64,000 nt of DNA from Sorangium aterium (GTDB lineage Bacteria; Myxococcota_A; Polyangia; Polyangiales; Polyangiaceae): the NCBI RefSeq assembly GCF_028368935.1, contig NZ_JAQNDK010000005.1:992001-1056000 (forward strand), in the 5' to 3' direction. A program made the position numbers and the translations under genes. Positions within the stretch are counted from its first letter, which is position 1; every line of letters starts with the position of its first letter. Below, in pieces: positions 6,467-62,154 of this stretch. Under the pieces are notes generated by a model. That model worked only from the letters and a program-made list of their open reading frames with translations. It was not told where the DNA came from and ran no database searches.

Positions 6467-9400
6467 ATGCTCGAGAACCTGCCGCTCTTTCCACCGAACG
6501 GGCTCGATCGGAGCCTCCACACCGCGGTCCTGATCGGCCTCGTCTTCGGGACGTTCTTCACCGAGACGCTCGGCTGGACGTACGCGGGGCTCGTCGTGCC
6601 CGGCTACCTCGCGACGGTGTTCTTCGCGGCCCCGGTCACCGCGGTGTTCATCGTCGCGGAGTCGATCGTGACGTACCTGTTCGTCGCGCTGATCGGCCGC
6701 TGGATCACCCGGACCGGCGCGTGGTCCACGGCGTTCGGGCGCGAGCGGTTCTACCTGTTCATCGTCGGCGCGGTGATCGTGCGGCTCTTCGTCGAGGGCT
6801 TCGTCGTGCCCGAGGTCTCGGCGCGCTACGACTTCGTGCACTCGCGGGAGCTCTACAGCATCGGGCTCGTGCTGGTGCCGCTCATCGCGAACGCCTTCTG
6901 GAACAGCGGCTTCCTGCGCGCGGCGCCGCGGCTCGCGGTCGTGACGGCGCTGACGGCGCTCGTGCTCGGCGTGCTGCTCCGGACGACGAACCTCTCGGTC
7001 TCGCGCTTCCAGGTGCTCAACGAGAGCCTGTCGCTCGAGTTCCTCGAGCTGCCGAAGGCCCACATCATCCTCGTCATCGGCGCGCTGATGGGCGCGCGCA
7101 ACAACGTCCGTTACGGGTGGGACTACAACGGCATCCTCGTGCCCGGCCTGCTCGCCGTGGCGTGGTACGAGCCGACGAAGCTGCTCACGACGACGATCGA
7201 GGCGCTGGCCGTCTTCTACCTCTCGCGCTGGATCACCTCGGTCCGCCCGTTCTCCCGGATGCTGCTCGTGGGGCCGCGGCGGATGATCTTCGTGTACGTG
7301 CTCGGCTTCCTCGTGAAGATGGCGATCGGCTTCGCCATGGTGCGGTACGCGCCGGGGCTGCAGATGGTCGACTACTTCGGCTTCGGTTACCTGCTCCCGA
7401 GCCTGCTCGCCGTGAAGATGTGGAACAAGGAGCACGTCGGCATCGTGATCATGCCGACGATCCAGGTGTCGTTCACCGCGTTCCTCGTCGGCAACGGCGT
7501 CGGTTATGCGCTCGTGGCGCTCGGCTGGGGCGGCGCGCCGCCGCCGCCCGCGACCGCGGCGAGGCCGGTGCCGCGCATCGAGAGCGCCGCGCTGTCGCTC
7601 GTGCTGGCGGACACGGCGCCCCGGCCCGGCCCGCGCCCGAGGGCGGCCGCGATCGCCGCCGACATCGAGTCGCGGCGGATCGCCCACCGGCTCGCGCGCA
7701 GCGTGCTGCGCGACGGGCGGCCGGCGGACGAGCTGCTCGGCGCGGCGGAGCGCGCGCGGGTGTCGGTGGCGCGGGAGGGCGACGGCGAGCGGCCGTGGTA
7801 CGTGCTGGGCCCGCGGTTCGACGATCCGGACGACGCGCCGGGCGTGCCGCGGGCGGCGATCCGCAAGCGCGTCGGCCGGAGCCCGACGTCCGCGCCCGAG
7901 TGGCTGGTGCTGGCGGCGCCCACCGAGCTCGGCTCGGCGCTGCCGGCGGTGGCCCTCCGGGTCGCGGGGCTGCTCGACGCGGCGGGGGTCGTGCTCCTGT
8001 CGCGCCACGGGGCGATCCGGCGCCACGACGAGGCGTTCGTGGCCGCGATGATCGACGCCATGGAGGACCCCCAGGTGCTCATCGTCGAGCCGGGCGGCGG
8101 CGATGGGCCGGAGCTCAGCGTCGTCGGCTCGCCGGCGGGGCTGCCCGTTGTGTCGATCGGCCTGGGGCTCGGCGCCGAGACGGCGATGACGTTCCGCCAG
8201 GCGGCGGAGCCGTCGACGCCCCTCGGCGACGCGCCGCGCCTGCACGTGCCGCGCGAGGTCGCCGAGGCGGTCGGCGCGCGCTCGCTCGGCGCGCCGGAGG
8301 CCGTGCGCTGGACCGGGACGCTGGAGGACGAGCTCGCGAAGCGGATGGTGTCCTTGACCGAGGTCCAGCCGGGCCGCTTCCGTCCGCCGTCGCTCGAGGA
8401 GCTCAGGCTGTTCGACGCCGTTGTGGCGCCGCGGTTGATCGCGGCGGCGACGCGCCCCGGCGGCGCGTCCGGCGCGGCGCCGCCGACCGCGTGGGAGCGG
8501 GCGATCCTCGGGCGCCTCGGCTTCCGCGAGGTGCGCATCGGCGGCACGGCCGAGGCGCCGGCGGCGTGGGGCATCGCGGAGCCGGGGCCGGACGAGGGGG
8601 GCCCGGAGCGGCGCGGGAACCCGGCGTGGCTCGTGCTGACACATCAGTCCACGCTGCCGCGTGCTGCGTCGAGCGGCGACATCTTGCCCACGGCGCCCTC
8701 GACGGAGGCGGTCAGGTCGCCGCTGACGGGCGCGATGCTCGTCGAGGTGCCCGCGCCGCGGTGGCAGATCGGGGCGTTCGGCGCGGGGCTCGCGCTCGCC
8801 GACGCGCTCTCGGCGCAGTCGCTGCTGCTCGCCGGGGCGGTGCCCACGGCGGAGCCGAGCGGGGCCGCCGACGTGCGGCGCGCCGAGGGGCTGCGCAGCT
8901 ACTTCCAGCGGGCGCACGAGGTCTGGGTCGGAGACGGCGGCAATGCGCTGTCGGTGCAGGCGATCGAGGCGGATCGGACCTACGAGCGGGACGCGGTGAT
9001 CTCGTTCGGGTACGAGGTCGTGCGGCCGGGGCACGTGCCGACGTTCGCGGGGCCGCTGCTGGAGACGCTGCGCGATCTCGAGCTGCGCGTGGGGATCTTC
9101 GACGGCACGCGCGAGCAGGTGCCGTTCAGCGGCGCGACGGACATGGCGATGGCCTACGCGAAGCGCTTCGCCGAGGGGCGGTTCGCGATCGTGTACCTGG
9201 GCAGCGCGATCCGGCGCTTCTTCGAGCTCCGGCGCTTCGTGGAGCCGGGGCAGGGGGAGACGCGCCTCGAGGCGCGGCTCGCGCGGCTCGGCGTGACGCC
9301 CGAGCCGGCCGACGTGGCAGCGCGCGCCCAGGCGCTCGCGTCGTGCGCGGGGACCGCCGGCGCAGGCGCGAGCGGGGACGAGCTCTGCCCGACCCGGGGC

Positions 9401-47825: not shown

Positions 47826-48706
47826 TCACGGCCCCGTCACGAGACCCGAGATGTGGATCTGTACGAGCGGACCATTCGCCTCGTCGTATACCACCACACT
47901 CGAGCCTCCGATCTCGCGTCGAACGATCACGTCCTGAAACACCATCGGCCCCTCTCCGAACTGCAGCAGCGCGCCCGTCGCCTCCAGCGCGTGATGCAGG
48001 TGGGGAAAGAAGGGCTGCACAGTGTACCCCGCGGGCACCGGTGGATACGAGCCGATGAGCGTCGCCGTCCCTGTCGCGTCGATCTGCCAGAGCTCGGCTG
48101 CCCCGCTACCCTGGTCCGTGGCGAGCGCGACGCGGAACGAGTCCGGCGCGAGCGCGCACGGCGAGCAGCGGAGCGTTCGGCAGGCCGACGATCGGCACCG
48201 AGCTCGCGTTGGCGAGATCGACGACACGGTTCTTAGTGAGCGCGAGGTTCGCGTAGCCGAGGTGGACGAGCATGTCCTGATCGTCGCCGTACACCATGAC
48301 GCCGTTCGCGTCGTACCAGTGCTTGTTCCAGTCGCCGGAGCAGCTGTGTATCCACGCTCGCCCGGGCCCCACCTTGATGTCCTCGATCCAATCGTTGGGG
48401 ACGCATGGTGCCGTCGGCAGGACGAGGTCGTTCGCGTCCGAGCCGTTGAGGTACGTGCCCAGATAGGGACATGCGTCGCACACGAATTCGCGAACCGATC
48501 CTGTGAGCACGTAGAGCAGCTTGCCGCCGTCTTGGAGGTGTGCGGTGAACTCATCGTAGGCGCCGATGAACCTGACGGCGGCCGTGTTCGGGTCGCTCCA
48601 GTGGGCCATGGCGTCGCGACCGCTGGAGCCCGGCTGGACCGTCCCCAGCAGGTAGACCTCCGCAGGATCGAACACGTCGCTGATGTTGCCCGGACCGCCG
48701 CCGCCT
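47826..48706 (-). pseudogene. Truncated and frameshifted secreted protein
   Basis: The upstream part (SDVFDPAEVYLLGTVQPGSS through REFVCDACPYLGTYLNGSDA to VDLANASSVPIVGLPNAPL) is in one frame and the rest (CSPCALAPDSFRVALATDQG, ELWQIDATGTATLIGSYPP, then VVVYDEANGPLVQIHISGLV) is in another, joined near 48170 if one extra base is skipped. The paired Cys residues and domain layout resemble surface proteins found repeatedly in Sorangium, which begin with a lipoprotein signal and Gly-rich linker. Here the 5' end stops abruptly at a Gly/Pro stretch near 48706, where RadC-like sequence begins on the other strand. Both lesions indicate a dead gene. Confidence 0.65.
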
Positions 48707-49125
48707 TCGAGCTCGGCCGCCGCACCCACGCCGCCCGCGCGCGCCGGGGCGCGCTCCTCACCGACGCCGCCCGCGTGGCGCGGTACTTCGGCCCGAGGCT
48801 GGCGTCCCTGGTCCATGAGGAGCTCTGGATCGCCGCGCTCGACAGCCACGGCCGCGTCCGTGAGACGCGCCTGCTCGCCCGCGGTTCCGACGACGCCCTC
48901 CACGTCGGCCGCTCGACCGTCTTGCGCACGGCGCCTGGAGATGGCCGCCCACAGCTTCGTCCTGGCCAATAACCCCCGAGCGGCGACCCGACGCCGACCC
49001 GCGGGGACGAAGCGATGACCCTGGAGCTGCGCCGCCTCTCGGCGGAGCTGCACGTCCCGCTCAAGGCCCCCGTCATCGTCACGCCCAGCGGCCGCTACGC
49101 CGCCGTCCACGAGGTTGCCCTCGCG
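48696..49125 (+). pseudogene. Degenerate RadC-like gene, copy A
   Basis: The frame AFELGRRTHAARARRGALLT then ARYFGPRLASLVHEELWIAA, LDSHGRVRETRLLARGSDDA matches the RadC/UPF0758 core. Near 48930 one base is gained and near 48975 one is lost compared with copy B, and the metal-binding HNHPSGDP motif has become LANNP. The closing part (MTLELRRLSAELHVPLKAPV, VTPSGRYAAVHEV) is back in frame. With its zinc motif gone the copy cannot be functional. Confidence 0.7.
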
Positions 49126-49382
49126 GGGCGCTGCGCCCCTGCGGATCCGGCCGCCAGCTTCCCGCGCACCGCCCCGGCCGGGGGCTCCGGGAGCCCCGGC
49201 AGCGGCAGAGGCGCTGGAGCACGTGGAGCAACCGACCGTGGCTTGGCTAGCCCGAGTTCGGTCAGGTCGCTCTGTGCCTGCGCTACGCCAGTCGACGTCG
49301 GCCATCGCCGTCGTCGCGGCAGCACCTCGCCGATGGGGAAGCGCGCCTGGGCAGCCTCCGAGCCGCGCGGTACAATCCCCCC

Positions 49383-49607
49383 GTGAACCTTCCCGAGCTG
49401 GAAGCCGAAGCCCTGAAGCTGCCCGTCGCGGAGCGCGCACGTCTCGCAGAGACGCTTCTGGCAAGCCTGGATGAGCTCTCCGAGGAGGAGCACAGGCGCC
49501 TCTGGACCGAGGAAGCGACGCGCCGGGACGCAGAGCTTGACGCGGATCCGTCTCGGGGGCGACCGGCCGAGGACGTCTTTCGTGATGCCCGCGCGCGGCT
49601 CCGGTGA
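49383..49607 (+). CDS. Addiction-module antitoxin (RelB/ParD-like)
   Basis: A 74-residue protein starting at GTG (MNLPELEAEALKLPVAERAR, LAETLLASLDELSEEEHRRL), a close match to the small addiction-module proteins that pair with RelE/ParE toxins. The stop overlaps the toxin start by 4 bp (GTGA). The toxin is frameshifted, so the antitoxin may be an orphan. Confidence 0.85.
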   Translation: MNLPELEAEALKLPVAERARLAETLLASLDELSEEEHRRLWTEEATRRDAELDADPSRGRPAEDVFRDARARLR

Positions 49608-49899
49608 CGCTCCCGGTCATCGTTCACGACCCGGCTGAGGTCGAGCTGAACGAGGCCGCCGCCTACGACGCTCGGGCACGTCCTGGTCTTGGTGACACCT
49701 TCGTCGCCGAGGTTCAAGGCGCGTCGATGCCCCGGCTGCGTCACCGCTCGCGGGAAGGGCTGTGGAGAACGATGTTCGCTGGTGGCTCGTGCGGCGATTC
49801 CCCTACAGCGTTTTGTACCGCGTACGGGCCGATCACATTCGTATTCTCGCGATTGCACATCAGAAGCGGCGGCCCTTCTACTGGCGCGGGCGCCAGTAG
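49604..49899 (+). pseudogene. RelE/ParE-family toxin with one-base frameshift
   Basis: The GTG start overlaps the antitoxin stop. The frame reads VELNEAAAYDARARPGLGDT then FVAEVQ and degenerates. One base back it continues RRVDAPAASPLAGRAVENDV, RWWLVRRFPYSVLYRVRADH and IRILAIAHQKRRPFYWRGRQ to a TAG ending at 49899. The second part holds the diagnostic FPYSVLYR and IAHQKRRPFYW motifs of ParE-like toxins. One base (probably G in CAG-AGG) is missing near 49716. Joined length is about 98 residues, normal for the family. Confidence 0.8.
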
Positions 49900-49907
49900 T
49901 CCGGCTC

Positions 49908-50175
49908 CGCGCCTGCTCGCCCGTAGTGGCGCCGACGTCATCTACGTCGGCCGCGCAACCGTCCTGCGCACGGCGCTGGACATGGCCGCCCACAGCTTCG
50001 TCCTGGCCCATAACCACCCGAGCGGCGACCCGACGCCGACCCGCGAGGACGAAGCGATGACCCTGGAGCTGCGCCACCTCTCGGCGGAGTTGCTCGTCCC
50101 GCTCACGGCCCACGTCATCGTCACGCCCAGCGGCCGCTACGCCGCCGTCCACGAGGTTGCCCTCGCGGCGCGCCG
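49908..50175 (+). pseudogene. RadC C-terminal fragment, copy B
   Basis: Starting nine bases after the toxin stop, the frame reads RLLARSGADVIYVGRATVLR, TALDMAAHSFVLAHNHPSGD and PTPTREDEAMTLELRHLSAE, then VTPSGRYAAVHEVAL. The JAB/MPN metal motif HNHPSGDP is intact, but the N-terminal half is missing. It shares long near-identical DNA with copy A. Confidence 0.75.
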
Positions 50176-50446
50176 CGCCCCGCCGATGGGCACTGCAGCA
50201 CCACGCATCCAGCCACAGCGCATCGCGCCGGCCGGCTGCTCCGCAAGCCTCCGGCAGCGGCGGCTCAGGCTGGCGGATGGCGCCCCCGCCCCATCTGGTC
50301 CGGCCTGGTGGATGGCCATCGCGGAAGTCTCTGGTCACAACACCCGGCAGGATCCGCGCAAGGAGAAGCTCACCCGACCCAAGGATCAAGTCATGCTACA
50401 GGTGCTCCGCGCGACGCTCGACGAACGGAGACGGACCTGAGCACGG

Positions 50447-50535
50447 ATGCCGTTGGCATCTCTCGCATCCCTCGTGCACGAGGAGCTCTGGATCGCGGCG
50501 CTCGACGCCCACGGCCGGGTCCGTGAGACGTGCCT
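50447..50535 (+). pseudogene. RadC N-terminal fragment, copy C
   Basis: The stretch SLASLVHEELWIAALDAHGR then VRETC repeats part of copy A (its SLVHEELWIAALDSHGRVRE) and then loses similarity at LGGWSAP. It is too short to function and lies downstream of copy B, as if the gene had been broken and its parts shuffled. Nothing else is supported at 50176-50446. Confidence 0.6.
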
Positions 50536-51227: not shown

Positions 51228-51932
51228 TCAGCTCGGGCTCTGTGACGCGATGAGCGATCGCAGCCAGTCGTCCGAGGCCTTGCGGTACTCGGGGACGCGG
51301 CTCCGCTCGGCCGCGGCGAGCGCCTCCTTCAGCCGAGGCGCGTCGAGGTCGTGGATGTAGCAGGGGGTACCCGGCTGCTGGCGCCACGCGTCCTCGAGGC
51401 CGCCCGCGTCGACCGCATCGAAGCCGAGCTCGTCGACGAGGCGCATGACCTTCGCCCGCGCTTCCGGCGGATCCCCCGCGATCGGGAGCGCGACGCGCCC
51501 CGGCGTGCCCTTCGGCTTGCCCTTCGCGAGCAGGCTCTCGAAGTAGATGTTGTTGAACGCCTTGACCACCGGCCGCCCAATCTGGTCGGCGACCCACGCG
51601 CTCTCGACCTGCCCCGCCTCGATGGCCGGGATGCTGCCGTCGCGGACCGGGTAGTAGTTGTTGGTGTCGATCACGACCACGTCGGCGGGCACGCCGGCGA
51701 AGAGATCCTTCGGCAGGTCCACGACCGCGCGCTGGGGGATCGTAACGACCACGATCTCGCCGCCGCGCGCGGCCTCCGCGGCCGTGACGGGGGTGGCGCC
51801 GGTCTCGGCGGCGAGCTCGCGGAGCGTGTCCGGCCCGCGCGAGTTCGCGATCACGACCTGGTGACCGAGCTTCCCCAACAGCTTCGCCAGCGACCCGCCG
51901 ATCAAGCCGGCGCCGATGATTCCGATCTGCAT
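51228..51932 (-). CDS. NADP-binding F420-oxidoreductase-like protein
   Basis: A 234-residue Rossmann protein. MQIGIIGAGLIGGSLAKLLG is the dinucleotide-binding loop, and the Arg after the second strand (ANSRGPDT) favours NADP. The layout (VVVTIPQRAVVDLP, VVIDTNNYYPVRDG, VVKAFNNIYFESLL and LPIAGDPPEARAKVMRLVDE) matches the F420-dependent NADP reductase/YqeC-like group. F420 use is not established here. A copy of a repeated promoter-like module lies about 160 bp upstream. Confidence 0.85.
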   Translation of the reverse strand: MQIGIIGAGLIGGSLAKLLGKLGHQVVIANSRGPDTLRELAAETGATPVTAAEAARGGEIVVVTIPQRAVVDLPKDLFAGVPADVVVIDTNNYYPVRDGSIPAIEAGQVESAWVADQIGRPVVKAFNNIYFESLLAKGKPKGTPGRVALPIAGDPPEARAKVMRLVDELGFDAVDAGGLEDAWRQQPGTPCYIHDLDAPRLKEALAAAERSRVPEYRKASDDWLRSLIASQSPS

Positions 51933-52835
51933 TCGTCACTCCTTCGAGCCGAGCCGCCCGCGATCGAGCGCGGACGCCGGCGGTCCAAATGCATCGTCTG
52001 ACGCAGACGGGCGATCGCTCGCTGAATGGTCGGTCCGCCTTGAACTCGGACCCACCCTCACGTGCCGCCCCCACGCATCGTGCAAAGGCAGCGTATCCGA
52101 CGGCTGCCCCACCTTGTCAAGCAGACCAACGCAGGACCGTGCGGTACCTACACCGGACGACGACGCGAGCGAGCGCTCGATGCCCTACCCCTCCGAAGCG
52201 AAGAAGCGCCCCTGCAACGGCGCGGCCGATCGGTGGCGGGGCTGTTCAGGTTGCCGCAGCTTGCCGAGCTCTCCACCACGCGGGACGGCGTCCGAAGCCG
52301 CGGCAAAACACGCGCTGACGATGAGCCACGTGGAGAAGCGCGCGGATGGCCGCGGGCTGTCGAGCTGCGGACACGGGGTCTGGCCGACAGGTGCCGGCCG
52401 GACGCATGCGCGGCCGGCCGCGCTCGATCTCCTCTTCGCCCGCGCCCTCACCCGCTCTCGGAGATGGTCCCGATGAGCCCGGTGGGCCGCGTCCCCGTCG
52501 GCGCCCCCGCCGAGACGGCGGCCGAGCTCTCGACGACAACGCAGATGAGCACGTGGCGCGTCCGCCGCGCGTCGGGCCATTGATGGTCGCGCGCCGCGCG
52601 TCGAGCGCACGGGCATGCCGATGAGAGGCGCACGCCTGGCGCGTCGCTGGACGCGATCGATGACGCAGGCGAGTATGTACATGGTGCGTGTGCCGGTCGA
52701 CGGGGCATCGAGGGTCGTGCCTGAGACAAGGCATGATCGCCGAGGGAGGGCAGAAGACTGCCCCGCGAACCTCGACGAGGGTCCCGGCGTCGGTGTGCTA
52801 TTGACGGTGGGCCGCCGGATGGAGAAGCTCGCACC
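51933..52835. other. Intergenic region of about 0.9 kb with promoter-like repeat
   Basis: It contains the first copy of a repeated module (52050-52159). The remainder, 52160-52835, holds only shadow-like frames with no recognisable protein character and may be decayed sequence. Confidence 0.4.
52050..52159 (-). promoter_or_regulatory. Repeated promoter-like module, copy 1
   Basis: About 92 of 110 positions match 61541-61649, counted by eye. On the minus strand it holds TTGACA (52119-52114), 17 bp, then GATACG (52096-52091), followed by the inverted repeat CACG-CAT-CGTG (52071-52081) around the expected start point. It points toward the NADP oxidoreductase gene starting at 51932. The promoter elements are the best conserved part of the module. 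Confidence 0.6.
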
Positions 52836-53399
52836 ATGAGTAGCGCGCTGATCGTCGGTGACCTCCAGGTCGGGATTCTCGACAACTACCCGTTCGCGAA
52901 GGCCGTGGTGCCGCCGGTGACCGAGCTGCTGTCGCGAGCCCGCGCAGCCGGGGTGCTGGTCGTGTTCGTGCGTACCGCGTTTCGGGCCAACGGCGCGGAC
53001 TTGGCGGGTGAGGTCTTCGCGGCCTTCCACCGGGCCGGCAACCTGTTCCACGAGGGGTCGCCGGGTACGGAGGTCGCGCTGGAGGTCACCGCGGACGACG
53101 TTGTCGTGCTCAAGCGGCGCACGAGCGCGTTCGCAGGAACGGATCTCGATCTGGTGCTCCGCGCCCGCGGCGTGGACTCGCTCGCGCTCACTGGTGTCGC
53201 GACGAGCGCCATGGTCGCGGCCACGCTGTACGATGCGTCGGACCGGGGCTACGAGCTGACCGTGCTCCGCGACGGGTGCGCCGACCCGGACCCGGCGGTG
53301 CACGAGCTCCTCGTCAACACCGTCTTTCCCAGCAGGGGCGCGGAAATCGTTACGTGCGCGCAGTGGCCAGCTCGTGGTGCGCGTACGGCTCCCCGTTGA
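52836..53399 (+). CDS. Isochorismatase-family (cysteine hydrolase-like) protein
   Basis: A 187-residue isochorismatase-fold protein. The Asp of the triad lies in ALIVGDLQVGILDN and the Lys in VLKRRTSAFAGTDLDLVL. The position that normally carries the nucleophilic Cys (GxxTxxCV) reads GVATSAMVAATLYDASDRGY, so the Cys is missing. The ending DGCADPDPAVHELL is typical. It may be a non-catalytic or altered member of the family, a known subset. Confidence 0.85.
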   Translation: MSSALIVGDLQVGILDNYPFAKAVVPPVTELLSRARAAGVLVVFVRTAFRANGADLAGEVFAAFHRAGNLFHEGSPGTEVALEVTADDVVVLKRRTSAFAGTDLDLVLRARGVDSLALTGVATSAMVAATLYDASDRGYELTVLRDGCADPDPAVHELLVNTVFPSRGAEIVTCAQWPARGARTAPR

Positions 53400-53661
53400 A
53401 CGGCTCGACCTCGCGGTAGCCCGCGGCGCGGTACGGCATCGCGCCGGCTTTGCGCGCTGCGCGCGACGACGCGAGCAAGCCTGCCAGGTTCCGGGCTCCT
53501 GAGACAACTTGCGCCACGCCGGCGACGCCCGTCTGCCCGAGCGCCTGCTCCCGGCGTTTGGCCTGCCCGTGGCGCTGCCGGAGCAGGGCGCGAAGATTTT
53601 TTCGAGCGACCGATGAGTTCTCCTCGGGCGGGGCGTCCATGGAGCAAAAGGAGACCCCCTC

Positions 53662-54063
53662 ATGTCCCACAAGCTCTTCGTCAGCCTGCCCATCAAGAAC
53701 CTCGAGCGCACCACGGCGTTCTTCAAGGCCCTCGGCTTCACGTTCAACCCGAAGTTCACGGGCGAACAGGCCGCCTGCATGCTCATCGGCGAGCACGCCT
53801 ACGCGATGCTGCTCGTCGAGCCGTTCTTCAAGACGTTCACCAAGAGGGAGATCTGCGACACCGCGACGCACGTGGAGGGGGCCTTCGGGCTCACGTGCGA
53901 GAGCCGCGCCGAGGTGGACGCGATGGTGGAGAAGGCGCTCGCCGGCGGCGGCAAGGAGCCGGACCCGCCGCAGGACCACGGGTTCATGTACAGCCGGAGC
54001 TTCGAGGACCTCGACGGGCACCACTGGGAGGTGCTGTGGATGGATCCGAAGGCCGCGCAGTAA
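53662..54063 (+). CDS. VOC-family lactoylglutathione lyase-like protein
   Basis: A 133-residue VOC protein with LFVSLPIKNLERTTAFFKAL, GEHAYAMLLVEPFFKTF and the closing SRSFEDLDGHHWEVLWMDP. It starts at an ATG with AAGGAGACC shortly upstream. Lyase activity is not shown by sequence. A GST gene follows 112 bp downstream, which would fit a small detoxification unit. Confidence 0.85.
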   Translation: MSHKLFVSLPIKNLERTTAFFKALGFTFNPKFTGEQAACMLIGEHAYAMLLVEPFFKTFTKREICDTATHVEGAFGLTCESRAEVDAMVEKALAGGGKEPDPPQDHGFMYSRSFEDLDGHHWEVLWMDPKAAQ

Positions 54064-54175
54064 GCCGCACGGATCTCGGCGGAGGAGGAGGATTCGAACA
54101 CCTGGCGCGGGCGGCGTCATGCGCGACGAACGAAGCCCGCTTGCGGCCCGCGCGCGGCGGGGTTCTGCTCGCCGC

Positions 54176-54796
54176 ATGTCCGACCTCAAATTCTATTACG
54201 CCCCCATGACGAGCGCAGACCGGGTGCACTGGGCGCTCGAGGAGCTCGGCGTCCCCTACGAGAAGGTCAAGCTCGACCTCGCGGCGGGAGATCAGCGCAA
54301 GCCCGAGTACCTCGCGCTCAACCCGAACGGCAAGGTCCCGCTGCTGGTCGCGGAGGGGAAGCCGATCTTCGAGGGGCTCGCGATCCTGCTCTACCTCGGC
54401 GAGCGCTTCGGCGTGGACAAGGGCCTCTTCCCGGCGCTCAACGCCGATCGCGCCGAGGCGTTCAAGTGGATGGCCTGGGGCAGCGTCACGCTGTTCGAGG
54501 CGACGACGCGGCTCCTGCGCAACACCCTGGAGCGCTTCCCCGCCGAGGAGCGCAACCCCAAGGTAGCCGAGGGCGCGAAGCAGGACCTCACGAACGGGAT
54601 CGAGATCCTCGATCGCGCGCTCGAGGGCAAGGAGTACCTCGTGGGCAACCAGTTCTCGCTCGCCGACGTGTCGCTCGTGACGGCGGTGCCGTTCCTGGCC
54701 CGCTTCGGCGTGGACCTCTCGCCTTTCGCGAACGTGAACGCGTGGATCGCCGGCTGCACGAGCCGGCCTGCGGCCAAGCGGGTCAGGCCCGGCTGA
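54176..54796 (+). CDS. Glutathione S-transferase
   Basis: A 206-residue GST from the ATG at 54176. The thioredoxin-fold half is MSDLKFYYAPMTSADRVHWA to KPEYLALNPNGKVPLLVAEG with the cis-Pro in KVPLL, and the Glu-Gly pair usually binding gamma-glutamyl appears as FEGLAILLYLGERFG. The helical half includes KEYLVGNQFSLADVSLVTAV, the conserved N-capping box. The catalytic residue of the first strand is probably Tyr or Ser in YYAPMTS. Confidence 0.88.
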   Translation: MSDLKFYYAPMTSADRVHWALEELGVPYEKVKLDLAAGDQRKPEYLALNPNGKVPLLVAEGKPIFEGLAILLYLGERFGVDKGLFPALNADRAEAFKWMAWGSVTLFEATTRLLRNTLERFPAEERNPKVAEGAKQDLTNGIEILDRALEGKEYLVGNQFSLADVSLVTAVPFLARFGVDLSPFANVNAWIAGCTSRPAAKRVRPG

Positions 54797-54968
54797 CGTC
54801 TCGCCCTGGCCGCCCGGCCGCGCTGGCGGCTATCTCATGAGCTTCATGAGCGCCAGCCGCGGCGGCGGCCACCCCGACGCCCAGGCCGACTGGATGAGCT
54901 ACCGGCTGCTCGATACGCTGCGCGAAGCTCCGGTCCCGACGACGTGTATCCGCAGTACCGGATGCTCC

Positions 54969-55019
54969 CTGCTGCGCCAGCAGCAGGCATGTGCTGCGCG
55001 TGTGCTGCTGGCGCAGCAG
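54969..55019. terminator. Perfect 17-bp inverted repeat between GST and MFS genes
   Basis: CTGCTGCGCCAGCAGCA (54969-54985) and TGCTGCTGGCGCAGCAG (55003-55019) are exact reverse complements with a 17-bp loop. Both flanking genes run plus, so it could end the GST transcript or sit in the MFS leader. There is no T run. The rest of the 351-bp gap (54797-55147) holds no supported gene. Confidence 0.55.
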
Positions 55020-55147
55020 CCAGCGGTCGCCATGGGCCTGCGCCGGCTCGGGAGCGTGGTTTGCAAGGCGCCCGCGCGGCAGCGCCACCCGATTCGGCAC
55101 CGCGGACGAACGCGCCGGACGACTGGCCGCTCGCCTCGGTTCGCGTG

Positions 55148-56371
55148 ATGACCTCTTCGCCGCCTCTCCCCCAGCGTTATCTCCTCGGCTTCATGGTGCT
55201 CGGCCTGCTCGCGGGCTCGAGCAACGGCGTGGCCAAGGTGGTCCTGCCGCTGTATGCCGCCTCGCTCCACGCCTCCCCCTGGCAGATCGGCCTGGTCGGC
55301 GGCCTGCAGTTCACCGGCATGCTGCTGCTCTCGATGCCGGTCGGAGGGTTGATCGACCGCCACGGCAGCCGGCCGCTGTTCCGCTTCGGCGGCCTCGCGG
55401 GCGCGGCGCTGTACCTGATCGGCTTCACCCACATGGATCGGCCCTGGCAGCTCATCGCGGGCGTGGTCCTCTTCGGGCTGCTCAACCCGTTTCGCATGGT
55501 CGCGACCCAGACCGAGTTCCTTCACCTGCTTCCTCGCCTCGGCCCGCGCAAGGCAGGCTGGCAGCGCGCGTCCCACTCGCTCGGCATGTTCTTCGTGGGC
55601 CCGATGCTCGGCGCGCAGCTCCTGGGCCTGCTCGGCTACACAGGCGTGTTCGTGGTGACCGGACTCGGGCTGCTGGCGACGGTCTTCGTCGGCGATCGCG
55701 TGCTCTCCGGGGCTCCCCCCGGCCGCGGGCGCTCGGCCACGCCGCTCCTCGAGCGCCTGCGCGGACAGGTCGGGATCATCCTGTCTCGCCGCGAGCTGCG
55801 CCAGAGCATGCTCATCGAGCTGTGCGGCCAGATGGCGATGTCCTACTTCGCCGTGTTCGTTGTGTTGATCGCGATTCGCGAGTTTGACCTCTCGGTGCCA
55901 CAAGCCGCGAGCCTCGTGACCATCCAGGGCGCCGTCTTCGTGCTGACCTTGCTCCTCGCCGGAGGCGCCCTGTCGCCGCTGCGCGACGCTGCCCGCTACG
56001 CGATCGCCTTCTCGCTGCTGCTCGCGACCGAGCTCCTGCTCGCTTTCCCCCTCGGCGTCGCGTCGCTGTGGATCGGGGCGGTCCTGCTCGGGCTCGGGCT
56101 GGGCGTGCAGCACCTCACGAGCGTCAATCGCTTCGCGGCGCTCACCGCCGAGCTCGGCCGCGGCCGGGTGGGCGGCCTGTTCTCGCTCTCGGGACCGGCC
56201 GGGGGCCTGATCGGCGCGGTGGCGGGCGGCTCGCTCGGGCAGCGCTTCGGCCTGTTCAGCGGCTTTCGCGTGCTCGCGGCGCTCTATGCGGTGCTGATGG
56301 TGTGGCACGGGCGCGGCGTCCTGACCGAGAACGGCCAGCCGGTCGCGCTCGCCGAGGGCGAGCCGGAGTGA
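55148..56371 (+). CDS. Major facilitator superfamily transporter
   Basis: A 407-residue membrane protein with about 12 helices. The ATG at 55148 (MTSSPPLPQRYLLGFMVLGL) precedes the first helix; a GTG one codon upstream and longer starts exist but add Arg/Ala-rich sequence. The loop 2-3 motif appears as GGLIDRHGSRPLFRFGG, typical of MFS efflux proteins. The C-terminal half has GLGLGVQHLTSVNRFAALTA. The substrate is unknown; drug or metabolite export is the usual role. It converges with the hydrolase gene 9 bp away. Confidence 0.88.
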   Translation: MTSSPPLPQRYLLGFMVLGLLAGSSNGVAKVVLPLYAASLHASPWQIGLVGGLQFTGMLLLSMPVGGLIDRHGSRPLFRFGGLAGAALYLIGFTHMDRPWQLIAGVVLFGLLNPFRMVATQTEFLHLLPRLGPRKAGWQRASHSLGMFFVGPMLGAQLLGLLGYTGVFVVTGLGLLATVFVGDRVLSGAPPGRGRSATPLLERLRGQVGIILSRRELRQSMLIELCGQMAMSYFAVFVVLIAIREFDLSVPQAASLVTIQGAVFVLTLLLAGGALSPLRDAARYAIAFSLLLATELLLAFPLGVASLWIGAVLLGLGLGVQHLTSVNRFAALTAELGRGRVGGLFSLSGPAGGLIGAVAGGSLGQRFGLFSGFRVLAALYAVLMVWHGRGVLTENGQPVALAEGEPE

Positions 56372-56380
56372 CCGCAGCCG

Positions 56381-57178
56381 CTACGCCAGCTCACGCAAGA
56401 ACGACAGGACCACCGCTCCCAGGCGCTCGGGTTGTTCAAATGGAAGGCCGTGGCCGGCGTCCTGTACCTGTTCGATCCGTACGCGTGGGTTGAGGTTCTG
56501 CAGCTCCGTCGCCATCTCGAGCGTGACGACGGGGCTGCTGTCACCGGTGACGAGCAGGCTCGGGACGTCGATCGCGCTGACCACGTCGCGATACGCGGGG
56601 TTGGGCGGCGTGAGGACGTCGAACGCTTCCATGCGGGTCTTCAGCCTCGCCTCGGCTTGCAGCTCGATGATCTCGGGCGAGCGGTGCGGGTTTCGGGCTC
56701 GGGCCTTCGCAACGAGGTCAGACTTCTGTAAGCCGAGGGCCTGGCGGTGTTGCTCCGCGACGTCACTGGCGTGCACCTCGCGCTGGATCTCGGGGCTCAA
56801 GAACGTCGGGTCGACAAGAATGAGGCCGCGGATGATCCCCGCCCCTCGACTCGCCACCACCGCGGCGGTCATGCCGCCCATCGAGTGGCCAAGCAGAACC
56901 GGACGGGAGAGCTCCAGACCGCGGATGAGGCCCACGACGTCGCTCGCGTGATCGTCGTACCGGTATCCGTGGTGCGGCGCGCTCGAGCCGCCGTGCCCTC
57001 TGGCGTCGGGCATGACGACGTCGAATTCAGCTTCGAGCGCCCGCGCCAGGGGAGTCCAGCAGGCGCCGCTCCCCATCAATCCATGGAGCAGGACGACGGG
57101 AACCTTGGCGCCTCCGGTCCGGAGGTAGTGGATGTTGATGCCGTTCGTTTCGCAGACTCCGCTGATCCAGGTCGTCAT
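56381..57178 (-). CDS. Alpha/beta hydrolase
   Basis: A 265-residue alpha/beta-hydrolase from the ATG at 57178. The oxyanion region is VPVVLLHGLMGSGACW, the nucleophile elbow is LLGHSMGGMTAAVV (Ser), the acid is in SLLVTGDSSPVVT (Asp), and the catalytic His is in VQDAGHGLPFEQPERL. All three catalytic residues are present, so it is probably an active esterase, lipase or haloalkane/epoxide-type hydrolase. The substrate is unknown. Confidence 0.9.
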   Translation of the reverse strand: MTTWISGVCETNGINIHYLRTGGAKVPVVLLHGLMGSGACWTPLARALEAEFDVVMPDARGHGGSSAPHHGYRYDDHASDVVGLIRGLELSRPVLLGHSMGGMTAAVVASRGAGIIRGLILVDPTFLSPEIQREVHASDVAEQHRQALGLQKSDLVAKARARNPHRSPEIIELQAEARLKTRMEAFDVLTPPNPAYRDVVSAIDVPSLLVTGDSSPVVTLEMATELQNLNPRVRIEQVQDAGHGLPFEQPERLGAVVLSFLRELA

Positions 57179-57333
57179 GGGGCTGTTCCTGCCTGCCGCA
57201 GCTTCGCAAGTGGGATGAAATGGTTCAGGTCCAAGTACGCGGCCAAACGACCTGCCCATCTGCTGCCGCGCGAAGTGCGGTCGGCAGCATGGGCTTGTTC
57301 GACGGCTGATTCGAGTCAGATGGAAGGCGCCGT

Positions 57334-57765
57334 TCACGCAGCGCGCTTCGCGCCTTTACCATGAGTGCTCCGTCCCGACGTTCGCCGCGGTGGCGGCTTC
57401 CCACGCGAATGAGGCGGATGGGCGATCAGCACTTCGGCCGGGATCTGCATCGATGCGTGGAGCTTTCGGATCATCGGGAGCGTGAGCGCCCGTTTGCGGC
57501 CCAAGACCTCCGAGACGCGTGCCCTGGACCCGATCAGCGGCTCAAGCTCCTTGCGAGTCCACCCGAGTTGCTCGCAGCGCGCCTCGATCGCTGCGATCGG
57601 GTCTGGCGGCGCAACAGGGAACTGCTTGCGCTCGTACGCGTCGACTAGCGTCGCGAGCGCATCGAGCTCTTGCGCCTCGGGCGAGCCCGGCTCCGCGTCC
57701 CAGAGCTCTTCGATTCTACGAAGCGCCCGACCGTGACTCTCCTTATCCACAACAGGCTCGATCAT
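57334..57765 (-). CDS. higA: HigA-type helix-turn-helix antitoxin
   Basis: A 143-residue antitoxin from the ATG at 57765 (MIEPVVDKESHGRALRRIEE). The N-terminal helices (PGSPEAQELDALATLVDAYE) and the helix-turn-helix QLGWTRKELEPLIGSRARVS, EVLGRKRALTLPMIRKLH are standard for HigA. The toxin gene precedes it by 10 bp, the usual HigB-HigA order. HigA would bind HigB and repress the operon. The C-terminus is extended by a basic Pro/Arg/Lys tail. Confidence 0.85.
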   Translation of the reverse strand: MIEPVVDKESHGRALRRIEELWDAEPGSPEAQELDALATLVDAYERKQFPVAPPDPIAAIEARCEQLGWTRKELEPLIGSRARVSEVLGRKRALTLPMIRKLHASMQIPAEVLIAHPPHSRGKPPPRRTSGRSTHGKGAKRAA

Positions 57766-57775
57766 CGCGGTGCCC

Positions 57776-58072
57776 TCATACGCTCGTCGCGTCAATTTTG
57801 TCGTATTCGGCATGGGTGCCGATGAATCCGACGTAGACCAGATACAATGGGCCGTACTTGACTTGAACGATCAAGCGGTAATTGTTGCCCTTGATGTCGA
57901 ACACAACCCGGTTGTTCGGGAGGAAGTCGACGCTTCCGAAGACGGCTTTGATGTCAGCGGGCTCCGTTCAGGTGGCATTCTGGACGATGGAGAACCAGAG
58001 CCGCAGCGGAATCTCGGCATCGGCGTGCCGAGTCCAGAACTCAACGAGAGTGCTGCGGCTGAAGATCCTCAC
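57776..58072 (-). pseudogene. higB: HigB-type toxin with an in-frame TGA at codon 35
   Basis: From the GTG at 58072 the frame reads VRIFSRSTLVEFWTRHADAE, IPLRLWFSIVQNAT, then TGA (57970-57968), then TEPADIKAVFGSVDFLPNNR, VVFDIKGNNYRLIVQVKYG and FIGTHAEYDKIDATSV to a stop at 57776. Relatives normally have a Trp at the stop position (TW-x-x-P-A-D), so TGG has become TGA. All other HigB features (NRVVFDIKGN, GTHAEYDKID) are intact. HigB is an mRNA interferase that cuts translated mRNA. The nonsense change would inactivate it, leaving HigA as an orphan regulator, unless read through or mis-sequenced. Confidence 0.85.
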
Positions 58073-58151
58073 GGAGTGAAAGGCATATCATGCTCCCGCG
58101 GTGGGAGCAAGCCCTTCGAGTGCAGCCTCCGGTGGCAGCTGAACCAGGCCA

Positions 58152-58547
58152 TCACGAACGCGCATCGACGGGAGAGGACGCGCCGCGCTTCGCTACCCAT
58201 CGCAGCAGCGTGTCGAGCGCCGGGCAGAGCGCTTGTCCCCACTCGGTGAGCCCGTACTCGACCCGGGGCGGCACCTCGGGGTGCGTGACGCGCCAGACCA
58301 TCCCGTCCCGCTCCATCTCCCGGAGCTGCTGGATCAGCATCTTCTGCGAGACGCCAGGGATGGCGCGTTCGAGCTCCGAGAAGCGCTGCACCTTCCCTCC
58401 GAAGAGGCGGAACAGGATCACCAGCTTCCAGCGCCCCTTGACGAGCTGGAGGGCCTGCTCGACACGCTCGGCGGCGATCTCGGGGGTGGCCGGCTCGTCA
58501 TACTCACCTTCGGGTGCGTCCCCCACCTTTTTGTGCGTTCTTGCCAC
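58152..58547 (-). CDS. HxlR-family transcriptional regulator
   Basis: A 131-residue winged-helix regulator. The diagnostic HxlR sequence is present: LVKGRWKLVILFRLFGGKVQ, RFSELERAIPGVSQKMLIQQ, LREMERDGMVWRVTHPEVPP and RVEYGLTEWGQAL. The N-terminal Cys used for redox sensing by some members is absent. It is divergent from an SDR gene whose start lies 83 bp away, so it probably controls that gene. Confidence 0.9.
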   Translation of the reverse strand: MARTHKKVGDAPEGEYDEPATPEIAAERVEQALQLVKGRWKLVILFRLFGGKVQRFSELERAIPGVSQKMLIQQLREMERDGMVWRVTHPEVPPRVEYGLTEWGQALCPALDTLLRWVAKRGASSPVDARS

Positions 58548-58630
58548 CCGATGAGCCTAGCCCAACTTTGCGTGTGAGGGGTCCACGTGCTGGGCCTCGG
58601 GTCATCGTCCCCCAGGAGGAACCGTCGTCC

Positions 58631-59440
58631 ATGCAAGTGAACACGCCCCGAAAATTCTCGATCGATCCGGAGGAGTTCGCCGGCAAGCGCGTGCTCGTCA
58701 CAGGCGGCACCAAGGGGGCGGGCGAGGCCATCGTCCGCCGCCTCGGCGCAGGGGGCGCCGTGACTGTGACCACGGCGCGCTCTGCGCTGCCGGCAGGCCA
58801 GTCGCCGAACGTCTTCGTACAGGCCGACCTTGCGACGGTAGCGGGTGTGGACGCCGTCGTCCGCACGGTCCTGGGCGAGCTTGGCGGGATCGACATCCTG
58901 GTCCACACCGTCGGCGGCTCCTCTGCACCGGGCGGCGGCTTCGCGTCGCTCACCGAGGACATCTGGCGCGACGAGCTCTCTCTCAACCTCATGGCCGCCG
59001 TGCGTCTCGATCGCGCGCTCCTCCCGAACATGATCGCGCGAGGCGCGGGGGTCGTCCTCCACGTTTCGTCCATCCAGCGCCGGCTCCCGCTCCACGACGC
59101 GACGATCGCGTACGCGTCCGCGAAAGCCGCGTTGTCCACGTACAGCAAGGCGCTCTCCAAGGAGCTGGGACCGAAGGGCGTCCGCGTGAACTCGATCGCC
59201 CCGGGATGGATCCGCACGACGGCAGCCGACGCCCTGGTGAAGCGCCTTGCCGATAACGCCGGTACGGACGAAGACACGGTCCGTCAGGGCATCATGAACG
59301 CGCTCGGTGGTATCCCCATCGGGCGTCCCGCATGGCCCGAAGAGGTCGCGGAGCTCGTTGCGTTCCTCGCCTCCGACAGGGCGGCATCCATCCATGGGAG
59401 CGAGTACCTGATCGACGGGGGCACTGTGCCCACCGTTTGA
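58631..59440 (+). CDS. Short-chain dehydrogenase/reductase
   Basis: A 269-residue SDR from the ATG at 58631, preceded by an AGGAGG-like site. The cofactor loop is LVTGGTKGAGEAIVRRL (TGxxxGxG), the catalytic Ser is in VLHVSSIQRR and the YxxxK pair in IAYASAKAAL. The C-terminal PG-x-I-x-T appears as IAPGWIRTT, and the end ASIHGSEYLIDGGTVP is typical of classical SDRs. It should oxidise or reduce an alcohol/ketone with NAD(P). HxlR-SDR divergent pairs are often induced by electrophiles or quinones. Confidence 0.9.
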   Translation: MQVNTPRKFSIDPEEFAGKRVLVTGGTKGAGEAIVRRLGAGGAVTVTTARSALPAGQSPNVFVQADLATVAGVDAVVRTVLGELGGIDILVHTVGGSSAPGGGFASLTEDIWRDELSLNLMAAVRLDRALLPNMIARGAGVVLHVSSIQRRLPLHDATIAYASAKAALSTYSKALSKELGPKGVRVNSIAPGWIRTTAADALVKRLADNAGTDEDTVRQGIMNALGGIPIGRPAWPEEVAELVAFLASDRAASIHGSEYLIDGGTVPTV

Positions 59441-59566
59441 CGGCAAATACCGTACCCACCTTGGCGCAACGCCCGCCCGCCGAACGCCTCGGCTTCTGCC
59501 GCGTGTCGGTGTGCGCAGCGCACCCGCGCGCCGGCCCCGCAAGCCCTCGTTGAGCGGCGCTCCGTG

Positions 59567-60325
59567 TCAGTCGTCCGGCACGGGGATCCTTTCGGAGTCC
59601 CACTCGAAGAAGCCCCGTGCACGGATGGTGCGGTCAGCCAGCGCTCGCGCTGCGAGCTGGCGCTCCTCGATCGTGGAGACCCCGAAGAAGCGGCGCGCCG
59701 CCTCGGCGATTTCACGGTCGCTGCGTTCGACCTCGAGCAGCAGGCTCTTGTCCCCTGGCACAGTCCCGCGCTCGGCGCGGAGGTAGTACCGGAGCATCGC
59801 CATGACCGCCTCACCGAGCAGCGCGCTGGCCATGGCGGGATCGCGCTCCACGACGTCCTCGCCGTCCTCCAGGAGTGTCGCCGCTGAATAACGAGCGAAC
59901 GCGTCCTCATCCGGAGCGAGCACGGCGCGCTTCTTCAGCCACTCGGCGGCCTCCTCCCGCAGGCCCTCGATCGCCTGGCCGCCGAACACAGGGAAGCCGG
60001 TGGCCATCATGTGCGCCGCGGAGGGGCGACCGCGCTCATGCTCGCTGGCGAAGTACGCTCGAATTGCGCGCGCCGGGTTGACGAAGATCTCGACCGGAAC
60101 GTCGCCGAACCACCGCTGTAGACGCTGCTTGTACGGACGCTCCTGGACAACGAAGATGTCGAGATCGCTGGTTCGATCACCCGCGCCGCGGACGACCGAC
60201 CCCGCGGCGACGATCGCCCGCGGCTCGAAGGTCTCGAATACAAACGCGACGACCGCACGGAGCGCTGTCGCATACCTCGGCGGGAGGTCGGGCCAGCTGC
60301 ACGTGGCGAGTTCGTCGGGGCTCAT
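59567..60325 (-). CDS. Nucleotidyltransferase-domain protein
   Basis: A 252-residue protein from the ATG at 60325. The polymerase-beta-like nucleotidyltransferase motif is intact: IVAAGSVVRGAGDRTSDLDI has the GS loop and the D-x-D metal ligands, and VEIFVNPARAI supplies the third acidic residue region. A helical C-terminal half follows (about 150-250). The length and layout resemble antibiotic or protein nucleotidyltransferases; the target is unknown. An unrecognised gene lies 19 bp upstream on the same strand and may be its partner. Confidence 0.8.
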   Translation of the reverse strand: MSPDELATCSWPDLPPRYATALRAVVAFVFETFEPRAIVAAGSVVRGAGDRTSDLDIFVVQERPYKQRLQRWFGDVPVEIFVNPARAIRAYFASEHERGRPSAAHMMATGFPVFGGQAIEGLREEAAEWLKKRAVLAPDEDAFARYSAATLLEDGEDVVERDPAMASALLGEAVMAMLRYYLRAERGTVPGDKSLLLEVERSDREIAEAARRFFGVSTIEERQLAARALADRTIRARGFFEWDSERIPVPDD

Positions 60326-60344
60326 CTTGTTCTCCGAGGTCGTC

Positions 60345-60695
60345 TCATCTGCTCGCCCAAGGCAACCACCTCGCCATCTCCTCACCTTTCGAACTGAGCA
60401 GATGTTCTTCCAGAAGCCTGGGCGCCACCAGCGTGTTCCAAGAAGCACCCGGCGGCGGGGGAAACTGCGCCGCCTGTTTTGCCGTCAATCCCTCGGCTCG
60501 CAGCCTGGCCAGCTGCTCGCGGCGCGAGCGCTCTCCTCCGCTGATGGCTTCACGAATGATTCGACGCACGGCCGCCCCGGAGGCTCCAGGTGACAGGTAA
60601 CCGCGAACGCGGAGCCTGAAGTAGATCCACCAGGCCGAGGGGAACGTGCCGACCCACGCGTCGAGATGCCTGGACATTTCGAGAGGTATGGCCAT
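60345..60695 (-). CDS. Hypothetical protein upstream of the nucleotidyltransferase
   Basis: Not recognised. A 116-residue soluble protein (MAIPLEMSRHLDAWVGTFPS) with a basic helical middle (RRIIREAISGGERSRREQLA) and a Trp-rich end. It ends 19 bp before the nucleotidyltransferase start on the same strand, so the pair is probably an operon. A toxin-antitoxin relation is possible, but no known toxin motif is visible. Confidence 0.5.
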   Translation of the reverse strand: MAIPLEMSRHLDAWVGTFPSAWWIYFRLRVRGYLSPGASGAAVRRIIREAISGGERSRREQLARLRAEGLTAKQAAQFPPPPGASWNTLVAPRLLEEHLLSSKGEEMARWLPWASR

Positions 60696-60732
60696 CGGGA
60701 ACTCACTACGGGTACCGAACGGAGCCTACGAG

Positions 60733-61479
60733 TCAGCACCAATGGCACGTTTGGCGAAGATCGCAGCCGAGGCATCGCTCGGCGAGAGCCGTGAAGTCGG
60801 GCACAGCAAATGGAAGACCTCCCTCGCGTGAGAACAGGCCTTCGAAGAGCCGGGCAGGCGGAAAAACGTAGTTGCCAAAGGTGATGCTCACCCATGATCG
60901 AGCGGCAGCGATTCCGGCGATCTCCATGTGCCCGGCCTTGTATGGATAGTTGGCGATGGCAACCGGCGGAACGTCCACGAGATCCATGCGCGCTCCGAAT
61001 CCGGGCGCCGCGTCCTCGGAGTCGCGGTCGGCGGACATCGACACGGGCACCTGGGTGCGATGGCATGTGATCGCGACGTAGTAGACGTCGTCGAACTGCG
61101 CTTGCGTCATGTCGAACCGCGCCCCGCCCTGAAGCGCTTCGAGCGCAAGCAGAGGCGGTCGATCCGGTCGGAACTCGCTCCAGATCGTAGCTTGAACGTT
61201 GTCATCATTCTCCAGGGAATGGCAGAGCTCCTCCGCGGAGTCGGGACGCAGCCACGATCCCGGATTGCGCCCGCGGTACTTGCCGGCCTTGGGCATCCCG
61301 CGCGACACAGTGAACACGAAGGACCCAACGGGCTCGGGGTCCGTCCGCACAAACCGCTCGGGGTTCTTCCCGACGAACCCAGCACTCATTGCGGCCTCGA
61401 GAAACGCCGTCATCGCCTCCGCCTTGAAGACCAAGCTCGGATCGAGCGGGACGAGAAGATGAGAATAATACATGCTCAT
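60733..61479 (-). CDS. Hypothetical protein with C-terminal cysteine cluster
   Basis: Not recognised. A 248-residue soluble protein starting MSMYYSHLLVPLDPSLVFKA (an ATG two codons on is equally likely). It ends with a compact four-Cys pattern, CLGCDLRQTCHWC, which could bind zinc or an iron-sulfur cluster. The rest is mixed alpha/beta. A copy of the repeated promoter-like module lies about 100 bp upstream, suggesting shared control with the gene at 51228-51932. Confidence 0.65.
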   Translation of the reverse strand: MSMYYSHLLVPLDPSLVFKAEAMTAFLEAAMSAGFVGKNPERFVRTDPEPVGSFVFTVSRGMPKAGKYRGRNPGSWLRPDSAEELCHSLENDDNVQATIWSEFRPDRPPLLALEALQGGARFDMTQAQFDDVYYVAITCHRTQVPVSMSADRDSEDAAPGFGARMDLVDVPPVAIANYPYKAGHMEIAGIAAARSWVSITFGNYVFPPARLFEGLFSREGGLPFAVPDFTALAERCLGCDLRQTCHWC

Positions 61480-61540
61480 GGATTGCCTCGCGGTCCTGGG
61501 AGCCCTCCGCGAACGAGTCGCCACGTATCCGTGGAGGGGG

Positions 61541-61649
61541 CCCACCCCCTCGTGCCGCCCCACGCATCGTGGGAAATTAGCGTATCCGGCGGCTGCCCCG
61601 CCTTGTCAAGGAGACCTGCGCCGGACCGCGCGGGCTCTACACCGGACGA
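61541..61649 (-). promoter_or_regulatory. Repeated promoter-like module, copy 2
   Basis: It matches 52050-52159 at about 92 of 110 positions by eye. On the minus strand: TTGACA (61609-61604), 17 bp, GATACG (61586-61581), then the perfect inverted repeat CCCACG-CAT-CGTGGG (61559-61573) near the expected start point. It points at the Cys-cluster protein gene. Nothing else is supported in the rest of the 675-bp gap 61480-62154. Confidence 0.6.
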
Positions 61650-62154
61650 AGGCGCGGCTCGCGCCGACGGCGGCGAGCGGCGCGCCCGCGTTCGCGCAGG
61701 TTCGCCCCGCGCCGGAGGGTGGCCACCGGGCCTGGGCGATCCATCTGCTCGACATCGCGGGGGACCGCATCCCCAGCATGACGTCCTTCCTGGCACCGAG
61801 GCGCTCTTCCCGCGGTTCGGCCTGCTGCTCGATCTTCCTGCATGGCCGCGGCGCTCTCCCGGCGTCACCGCAAGCGCCGTTCCGGCAGGGCCGCGGCGCC
61901 CTTCCGGCGCGTCCGCCGGGCCGGGCGCCCGGTCAGAGGCGGCGCGGCGATTTTTTCCGGCGAACGATGATTCCTGGCGGGGCCGGGGGTCTACGGGGTG
62001 AATCCCGACCGCCGCGCGCGCGCGCTGCTCGCGAGCCCGGCGTCGCTCGACCGATGAGCTTCACATTTGCTTCCCGCCTCCCCGCCTTCATGGTCAGATC
62101 GGGCCGCGGCCAGCCCGCCTCTCGAACCATGGATCGCGAGCAAGGAGACCACCG

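Follow-up and report, generated by a model that had tools for sequence, protein, structure and literature searches.

The window analyzed here is a stretch of 64,000 nucleotides from Sorangium aterium (contig NZ_JAQNDK010000005.1, positions 992,001 to 1,056,000), which carries two copies, A and B, of a promoter-like module, both on the minus strand. The original prediction, made from the letters of this stretch alone, had described them as a repeat of about 84% identity upstream of two unrelated genes, and on both points it was right: the copies align at 82.5% identity over 120 columns with one gap (E-value 2e-29, search within the window), and the gene downstream of copy A encodes an F420_oxidored-type protein (PF03807), that downstream of copy B an orphan protein without a Pfam match. 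The modules and their parts are:

52048-52167, minus strand: module copy A (promoter core and leader), delimited by similarity to copy B and by the family alignment
52090-52120, minus strand: promoter core A, TTGACA - 19 bp - TACGCT, delimited by pattern, alignment and block identity
52115-52120, minus strand: TTGACA of copy A
52092-52097, minus strand: GATACG of copy A, 17 bp from TTGACA
52072-52082, minus strand: CACG-ATG-CGTG of copy A
52166-52361, minus strand: left flank of the integron platform described below, beside copy A only (329-base match of 86% to locus L053, anchor -197 to +131)
61538-61656, minus strand: module copy B, delimited by similarity
61579-61609, minus strand: promoter core B, TTGACA - 19 bp - TACGCT, delimited by pattern, alignment and block identity
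61604-61609, minus strand: TTGACA of copy B
61581-61586, minus strand: GATACG of copy B, 17 bp from TTGACA
61561-61571, minus strand: CACG-ATG-CGTG of copy B

TTGACA and TACGCT are unaltered in both window copies, and copy A retains at most about 200 bp of the left flank of the platform.

Similarity searches revealed that these two copies belong to a larger family. One query found six clear copies in the window's own 13.5 Mb genome; with a second one the count was seven there and 25 across the six genus genomes. A pattern search confined to the window's own genome yielded three sites. The pattern TTGACAN4GGGN12TACGCT, with at most one mismatch, occurs at 34 sites distributed over all six genus genomes, while the reversed pattern, used as a control, has no match in the same six genomes. 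The collected set comprises 37 copies (the 34 found by pattern and three found by similarity alone), present in all six genomes, with eight in the window's own; many of them are partial or fragmentary. Among 108 genomes of the family, searched at an E-value of 0.001 with only seven candidates scored per genome, eight had a match: the six of the genus and two others, in which only short stretches of 27 and 46 bases matched (E-values 5e-4 and 9e-4). The expectation of a promoter-like module dispersed upstream of unrelated genes, with more copies elsewhere in the genome, is supported. Copies lying inside genes or in random orientation to their neighbors, which had been named as the contrary outcome, were not seen in most cases: judged by codon composition, a crude test, no open reading frame (ORF) is supported over the module in 29 of 36 collected regions, and in two of the other seven the ORF extends, in frame, the gene that the module precedes.

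Analysis of the surroundings ties the copies together in a way the original prediction had not seen, namely through an integron platform (intI, attI, attC). Eleven loci have the module immediately past the 3' end of a gene for an integron integrase (or what is left of one), directed toward a conserved attI, and at many of these loci attC sites follow. The intact order is module, intI in the opposite direction, attI, and cassettes with attC sites. The module-adjacent gene matches the integron integrase model TIGR02249 with 405 bits (cut-off 265), and a near-identical copy of the integrase aligns over 311 residues to the solved structure 2a3v (265 bits), the alignment running through the LP.AL..K.P.A insertion (the extra domain). 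Of the 11 intI genes, four are of full length and free of stops, one, located in the genome of the window, is interrupted by a TGA, and six have internal deletions with module and attI retained (L053, L056, L058, L060, L064, L065). In intact copies the shared unit ends about 1.4 kb from the module at a GTTRRRY-like core, beyond which the loci differ; the deletions at L056, L060, L064 and L065 shorten the distance between promoter and attI to about 140-300 bp. We took the conserved stretch of 70 bases before the core to be attI. The 11 aligned cores mostly read GTT (GTC in L064 and L065), and their fourth base is not always a purine. The first genes after attI at L060 and L064 encode acetyltransferase domains, a common kind of cassette gene, and from the different genes that follow attI we infer that the Sorangium integrase recombines attC with attI. 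L050 and L051, two platforms of So0157-2 (G001:C1, at 300 kb and 11.26 Mb), are identical at 97.6% in a stretch of 1.6 kb and at 93.9% in another of 1.4 kb, which suggests that a whole platform was recently duplicated within one genome. To the left of the intact platform L050 lie an ECF-sigma-like frame (6692-7474) and an XRE-type regulator frame (7420-7794).

Scans downstream of attI detected imperfect hairpins with AAC and GTT boxes. In 15 aligned attC sites the two-block hairpin is paired in 92.9% of cells, as compared with 77.8% after shuffling and 17-41% in slid controls, with 37 double changes (12.8 shuffled) and a covariation of 0.339 (0.098 shuffled). A covariance model built for these sites found 69 matches at an E-value of 0.01 in five of the six genus genomes, with 150 candidates scored per genome. 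For nine of the 29 modules on the long contigs considered, an attC on the same strand follows downstream within 10 kb (random mean 0.097, maximum 2); with the 15 training sites removed the number is seven of 29 (random mean 0.079, maximum 2). Around the modules 23 attC sites lie downstream on the same strand, three upstream on the same strand, two upstream on the other strand and none downstream on the other strand.

The alignment of the copies also revises the anatomy of the promoter. A TTGACA and a GATACG 17 bp apart, as originally proposed, do exist in both window copies, but the -10 element of the family is TACGCT, at 19 bp from TTGACA: among 28 alignable copies found by similarity (L091, which has no -35, was left out) each of its bases is kept in 24 to 28, while the base preceding it is variable, being A, as in GATACG, in 15 of 28. 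Likewise, the CACG-CAT-CGTG inverted repeat is present in both window copies, but the complete CACG-NNN-CGTG is found in just eight of 29 family copies and CACGATG alone in 20 of 29. For 20 chosen copies the mean pairwise identity is 92.5% in the -35 block and 93.3% in TACGCT, compared with 76.2% in the spacer and 40-67% outside the core. In a second subfamily, represented by seven copies (six orthologues and one paralogue) and described below, the corresponding values are 94.3%, 100%, 77.9% and 29-60%. Such selective conservation of the -35 and -10 elements is the pattern that purifying selection on a promoter would give. Promoters served by MerR-type activators have a spacer of 19-20 bp holding a dyad to which a linked MerR-family regulator binds, and the module has conserved bases in a spacer of 19 bp. 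An Rfam search of six loci returned four matches with E-values up to 5, none at the module and none near the gathering score. We also considered the leader as a structured RNA (a GGAG...CTCC hairpin) and rejected it: the pairing is not kept in the register of copy A, and the second subfamily reads this stretch as codons.

That second subfamily places the same promoter in front of a host gene. Six of the 37 copies are orthologues shared by the six genus genomes: they occupy the same locus, and for kilobases to one side or to both the sequence is about 84-90% identical. In most of these genomes a conserved gene of about 319 aa (G000:C4:777873-778829 in the window's own genome) begins 55 bp after the promoter. 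In one orthologue the reading frame begins with GTG slightly further on, and in that of G002 the leader and the N-terminal part are largely missing. The integron module is 70-75% identical to the host promoter and the first codons of the host gene over 114-133 bp (E-values 4e-7 to 2e-11). The host gene adjoins frames that by eye (they were not run against the family library) appear to encode a response regulator and a sensor kinase. Homologues in 12 non-genus genomes match only from query residue 58-114 onward, and at 13 outgroup host-gene loci the promoter pattern is absent within 900 bp upstream (best case 5 mismatches of 15); the N-terminal stretch and the promoter thus both look Sorangium-specific, having arisen, or arrived, in the Sorangium lineage. 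A paralogue of the host gene at L129 (G002:C1:12430545), which has the promoter too, sits some 0.7 kb downstream from an attC site; this hints that a gene carrying its promoter has moved near a cassette array.

Taken together, the family, its linkage to intI, attI and attC, its orientation and the selective conservation of its hexamers make it likely that the module is the cassette promoter (Pc) of chromosomal integrons specific to Sorangium, situated outside intI, and that the window copies are decayed platforms. In keeping with this, a scan of L050 (7900-9560) found no consensus sigma-70 promoter between module and attI. From these features we infer that the module is transcribed, drives the cassettes and is kept by selection for doing so. 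RNA polymerase would most likely start just past TACGCT and read toward attI and the cassettes, in intact platforms crossing intI in antisense for about 1.4 kb; deletions in intI would bring the promoter nearer attI, and once intI is lost the promoter would stay in front of genes on its own strand.

Several observations speak against this assignment or limit it. By position the module does not look like a Pc: the usual definition places such a promoter inside intI or attI, and the module has the right direction but lies beyond the 3' end of intI, at a distance from attI (about 1.4 kb in intact copies) that is long for a Pc. A scan for the sigma-70 consensus does not call the module a promoter, because its -10 matches TATAAT at only three of six bases. 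The loci were collected through the module, which makes the module/intI/attI pattern partly a matter of ascertainment: a search with the attI model gave 29 matches at an E-value of 0.05, and of the 13 scoring at least 55 bits the 11 with a module are all training sites of that model and two have no module, as is the case for most of the weaker matches. Conversely, 26 of the 37 modules have no linked attI, and for 20 of the 29 modules no attC was detected on the same strand in the 10 kb downstream, so that many copies are solitary. The window has no intI match at an E-value of 1e-10, and its best match to the attI model has an E-value of 0.9, i.e. the window copies come without intI and without a detectable attI. 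Finally, the promoter precedes an ordinary conserved gene as well and is not exclusive to integrons. In three metagenome-assembled genomes with integrases 71-77% identical we found no such module beside intI, so across the 80 loci examined this placement seems confined to Sorangium. Where attI occurs without a module, at L144, L147 and L156, repeats of the form GCGGCCTATCTTCGGAGATGCGC / GGGAATACGCAGATATGC stand upstream of it; they may be integrase-binding repeats of another integron lineage. In the window's own genome one solitary module is followed, 2.4 kb downstream, by an attI-like 3' half (G000:C6:262363-262404; L022, L151).

The strongest competing explanation, though we regard it as improbable, is that the module is inactive DNA of old integron copies and looks conserved since the copies are young. 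It does travel with intI and attI as one stretch (L050 and L055 are 97% identical over 3.5 kb), and many copies are fragments; yet divergent copies keep the -35 and -10 at 92-93% while the neighboring blocks have fallen to 40-67%, neither window copy has a change in either hexamer, and the same core stands 55 bp before the start of a conserved gene. In another model the RNA from this promoter is complementary to intI and limits the integrase, with transcription of cassettes being secondary. In each of the four intact platforms the promoter is indeed directed at the 3' end of intI, but the core is kept at L056, L060, L064 and L065 despite the deletions in intI, and in the intI-free window, and we consider antisense control very unlikely.

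Part of the idea of a mobile or duplicated control cassette that places genes in one regulon survives, since the module is promoter-like and dispersed. A regulator that binds the inverted repeat or the spacer, and thereby coregulates the cassette genes and the host gene, could draw on a spacer conserved at 76-78%, above the flanks, on the MerR-like spacing and, in the second subfamily, on the apparent two-component genes nearby. On the other hand, the repeat is seldom complete, no regulator gene was tied to the copies (linked MerR genes were not looked for systematically) and linkage to integron parts already accounts for the dispersal, which leaves a dedicated regulon doubtful in the extreme, if somewhat less so than the antisense model. 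Cassettes may still be coregulated with the host gene through their common promoter. Dispersed and often partial copies would also fit another mobile element, an insertion sequence or a miniature inverted-repeat transposable element with an outward promoter at its end; here the adjoining recombinase is an integron integrase, and the right edge is an integron core site followed by attC sites, so such an origin is hardly conceivable, although terminal repeats and target duplications were not sought systematically. An IS91-like element was also considered and discarded in view of the identity of the recombinase.

Compared with known systems, the Sorangium platforms interpreted as integrons with an external Pc resemble class 1 integrons (PMC8876359) in having intI, attI, cassettes with attC, a crossover at GTTRRRY and a promoter opposed to intI and directed at attI. 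In class 1 integrons Pc lies within intI1, at 223-252 bp from the crossover (PMC8876359); the Sorangium candidate differs in lying beyond the 3' end of intI and, where intI is intact, about 1.4 kb away, and only the deleted platforms, with about 140-300 bp, come near the class 1 distance. Reviews locate Pc within intI or close to attI, although what is said on Pseudomonas stutzeri is ambiguous in one place. In the chromosomal integron of P. stutzeri a Pc is reported to have been tested, and its hexamers are different (TTGAGC-16-TCTGAT). The likeness to the integron of Vibrio cholerae lies in the chromosomal location and in the integrase, for which 2a3v was the closest solved structure found, while the Sorangium platforms differ in being several per genome and mostly decayed. 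The parts of an integron are known, and what appears to be new is the placement of Pc beyond the 3' end of intI. Our literature searches, which covered few subscription papers, retrieved no title on Sorangium or myxobacterial integrons, which is weak evidence of absence; the matching passage of one paper retrieved with the Sorangium and integron literature (PMC3937717) concerns a beta-lactamase gene.

Integrons are best known from pathogens and vibrios, and here they occur in a genus with genomes of 11-15 Mb. Each genome has a number of related platforms, ranging from intact ones through all stages to a bare promoter, so that the domestication of captured genes can be followed step by step. 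A promoter that outlasts intI would explain how cassettes are expressed after the death of the platform. More tentatively, we suggest that the module is a portable promoter of host type, shared with the conserved gene, which the host gene gained in the Sorangium lineage along with a new N-terminal stretch, and that on loss of intI the promoter is left behind and makes ordinary expressed genes of the cassettes. If this were true, captured genes would be expressed in step with that locus, and the common promoter makes their entry into an existing host control circuit directly testable.

The remaining features of the window locus are, on the same strand as the modules:

51228-51932, minus strand: gene for the F420_oxidored-type NAD(P)-binding protein downstream of copy A (PF03807, 72 bits; ATG at 51932)
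56381-57337, minus strand: alpha/beta hydrolase gene (PF00561, 110.6 bits; likely start codon just beyond attC site 2, start inferred from the translation)
57242-57303, minus strand: attC site 2 (covariance model R1, 61.0 bits, E-value 1.2e-10)
57334-57813, minus strand: HTH_3-like gene (PF01381, 17.5 bits, below the cut-off of 23), ending 31 bp before attC site 2
59479-59555, minus strand: attC site 1 (covariance model R1, filters off, 41.7 bits, E-value 1.3e-6)
59567-60448, minus strand: NTP_transf_2-domain (nucleotidyltransferase) gene (PF01909, 24.4 bits, cut-off 21), ending 12 bp before attC site 1
60733-61479, minus strand: cassette-like orphan gene downstream of copy B (ATG at 61479; no Pfam match)

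The ATG of the F420-type gene is 188 bp from the start of the -35 of copy A, and 130 bp separate the start of the copy B promoter from the orphan gene. From copy B onward the order is promoter, orphan gene, nucleotidyltransferase-domain gene, attC 1, a part in which both strands carry genes, HTH-like gene, attC 2 and hydrolase gene. The longer frame of the orphan gene (60733-61563) has no NCBIfam or Pfam match either, and the gene was found in none of the 38 other relatives searched, as expected of a cassette gene. A strict pattern scan for attC detected neither of the two window sites (0.2 expected by chance), and a relaxed one detected 59479-59555 and missed 57242-57303; further matches to the covariance model in the window, from 21 bits downward, do not stand out, and that of 21 bits is without AAC and GTT boxes.

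Clusters of attC sites lacking an integrase (CALIN) are defined by at least two attC within about 4 kb and no intI. The window locus has no intI and, between copies A and B, two attC sites that share a strand and are separated by 2.2 kb; it is of this kind and not an intact integron, and it differs from a CALIN in still having the platform promoter upstream. The window copies are best read as relics of platforms, in which intI and attI have gone and the promoter still stands before same-strand genes, and these promoters probably still switch their neighboring genes on. The region, in our reading, is what more than one integron has left behind. At 48688-50535 the window also contains two or three diverged pieces of a RadC/JAB-type gene, 84-94% alike; a gene of this type adjoins intact Sorangium platforms on the left, and the pieces are perhaps the remains of a further platform.

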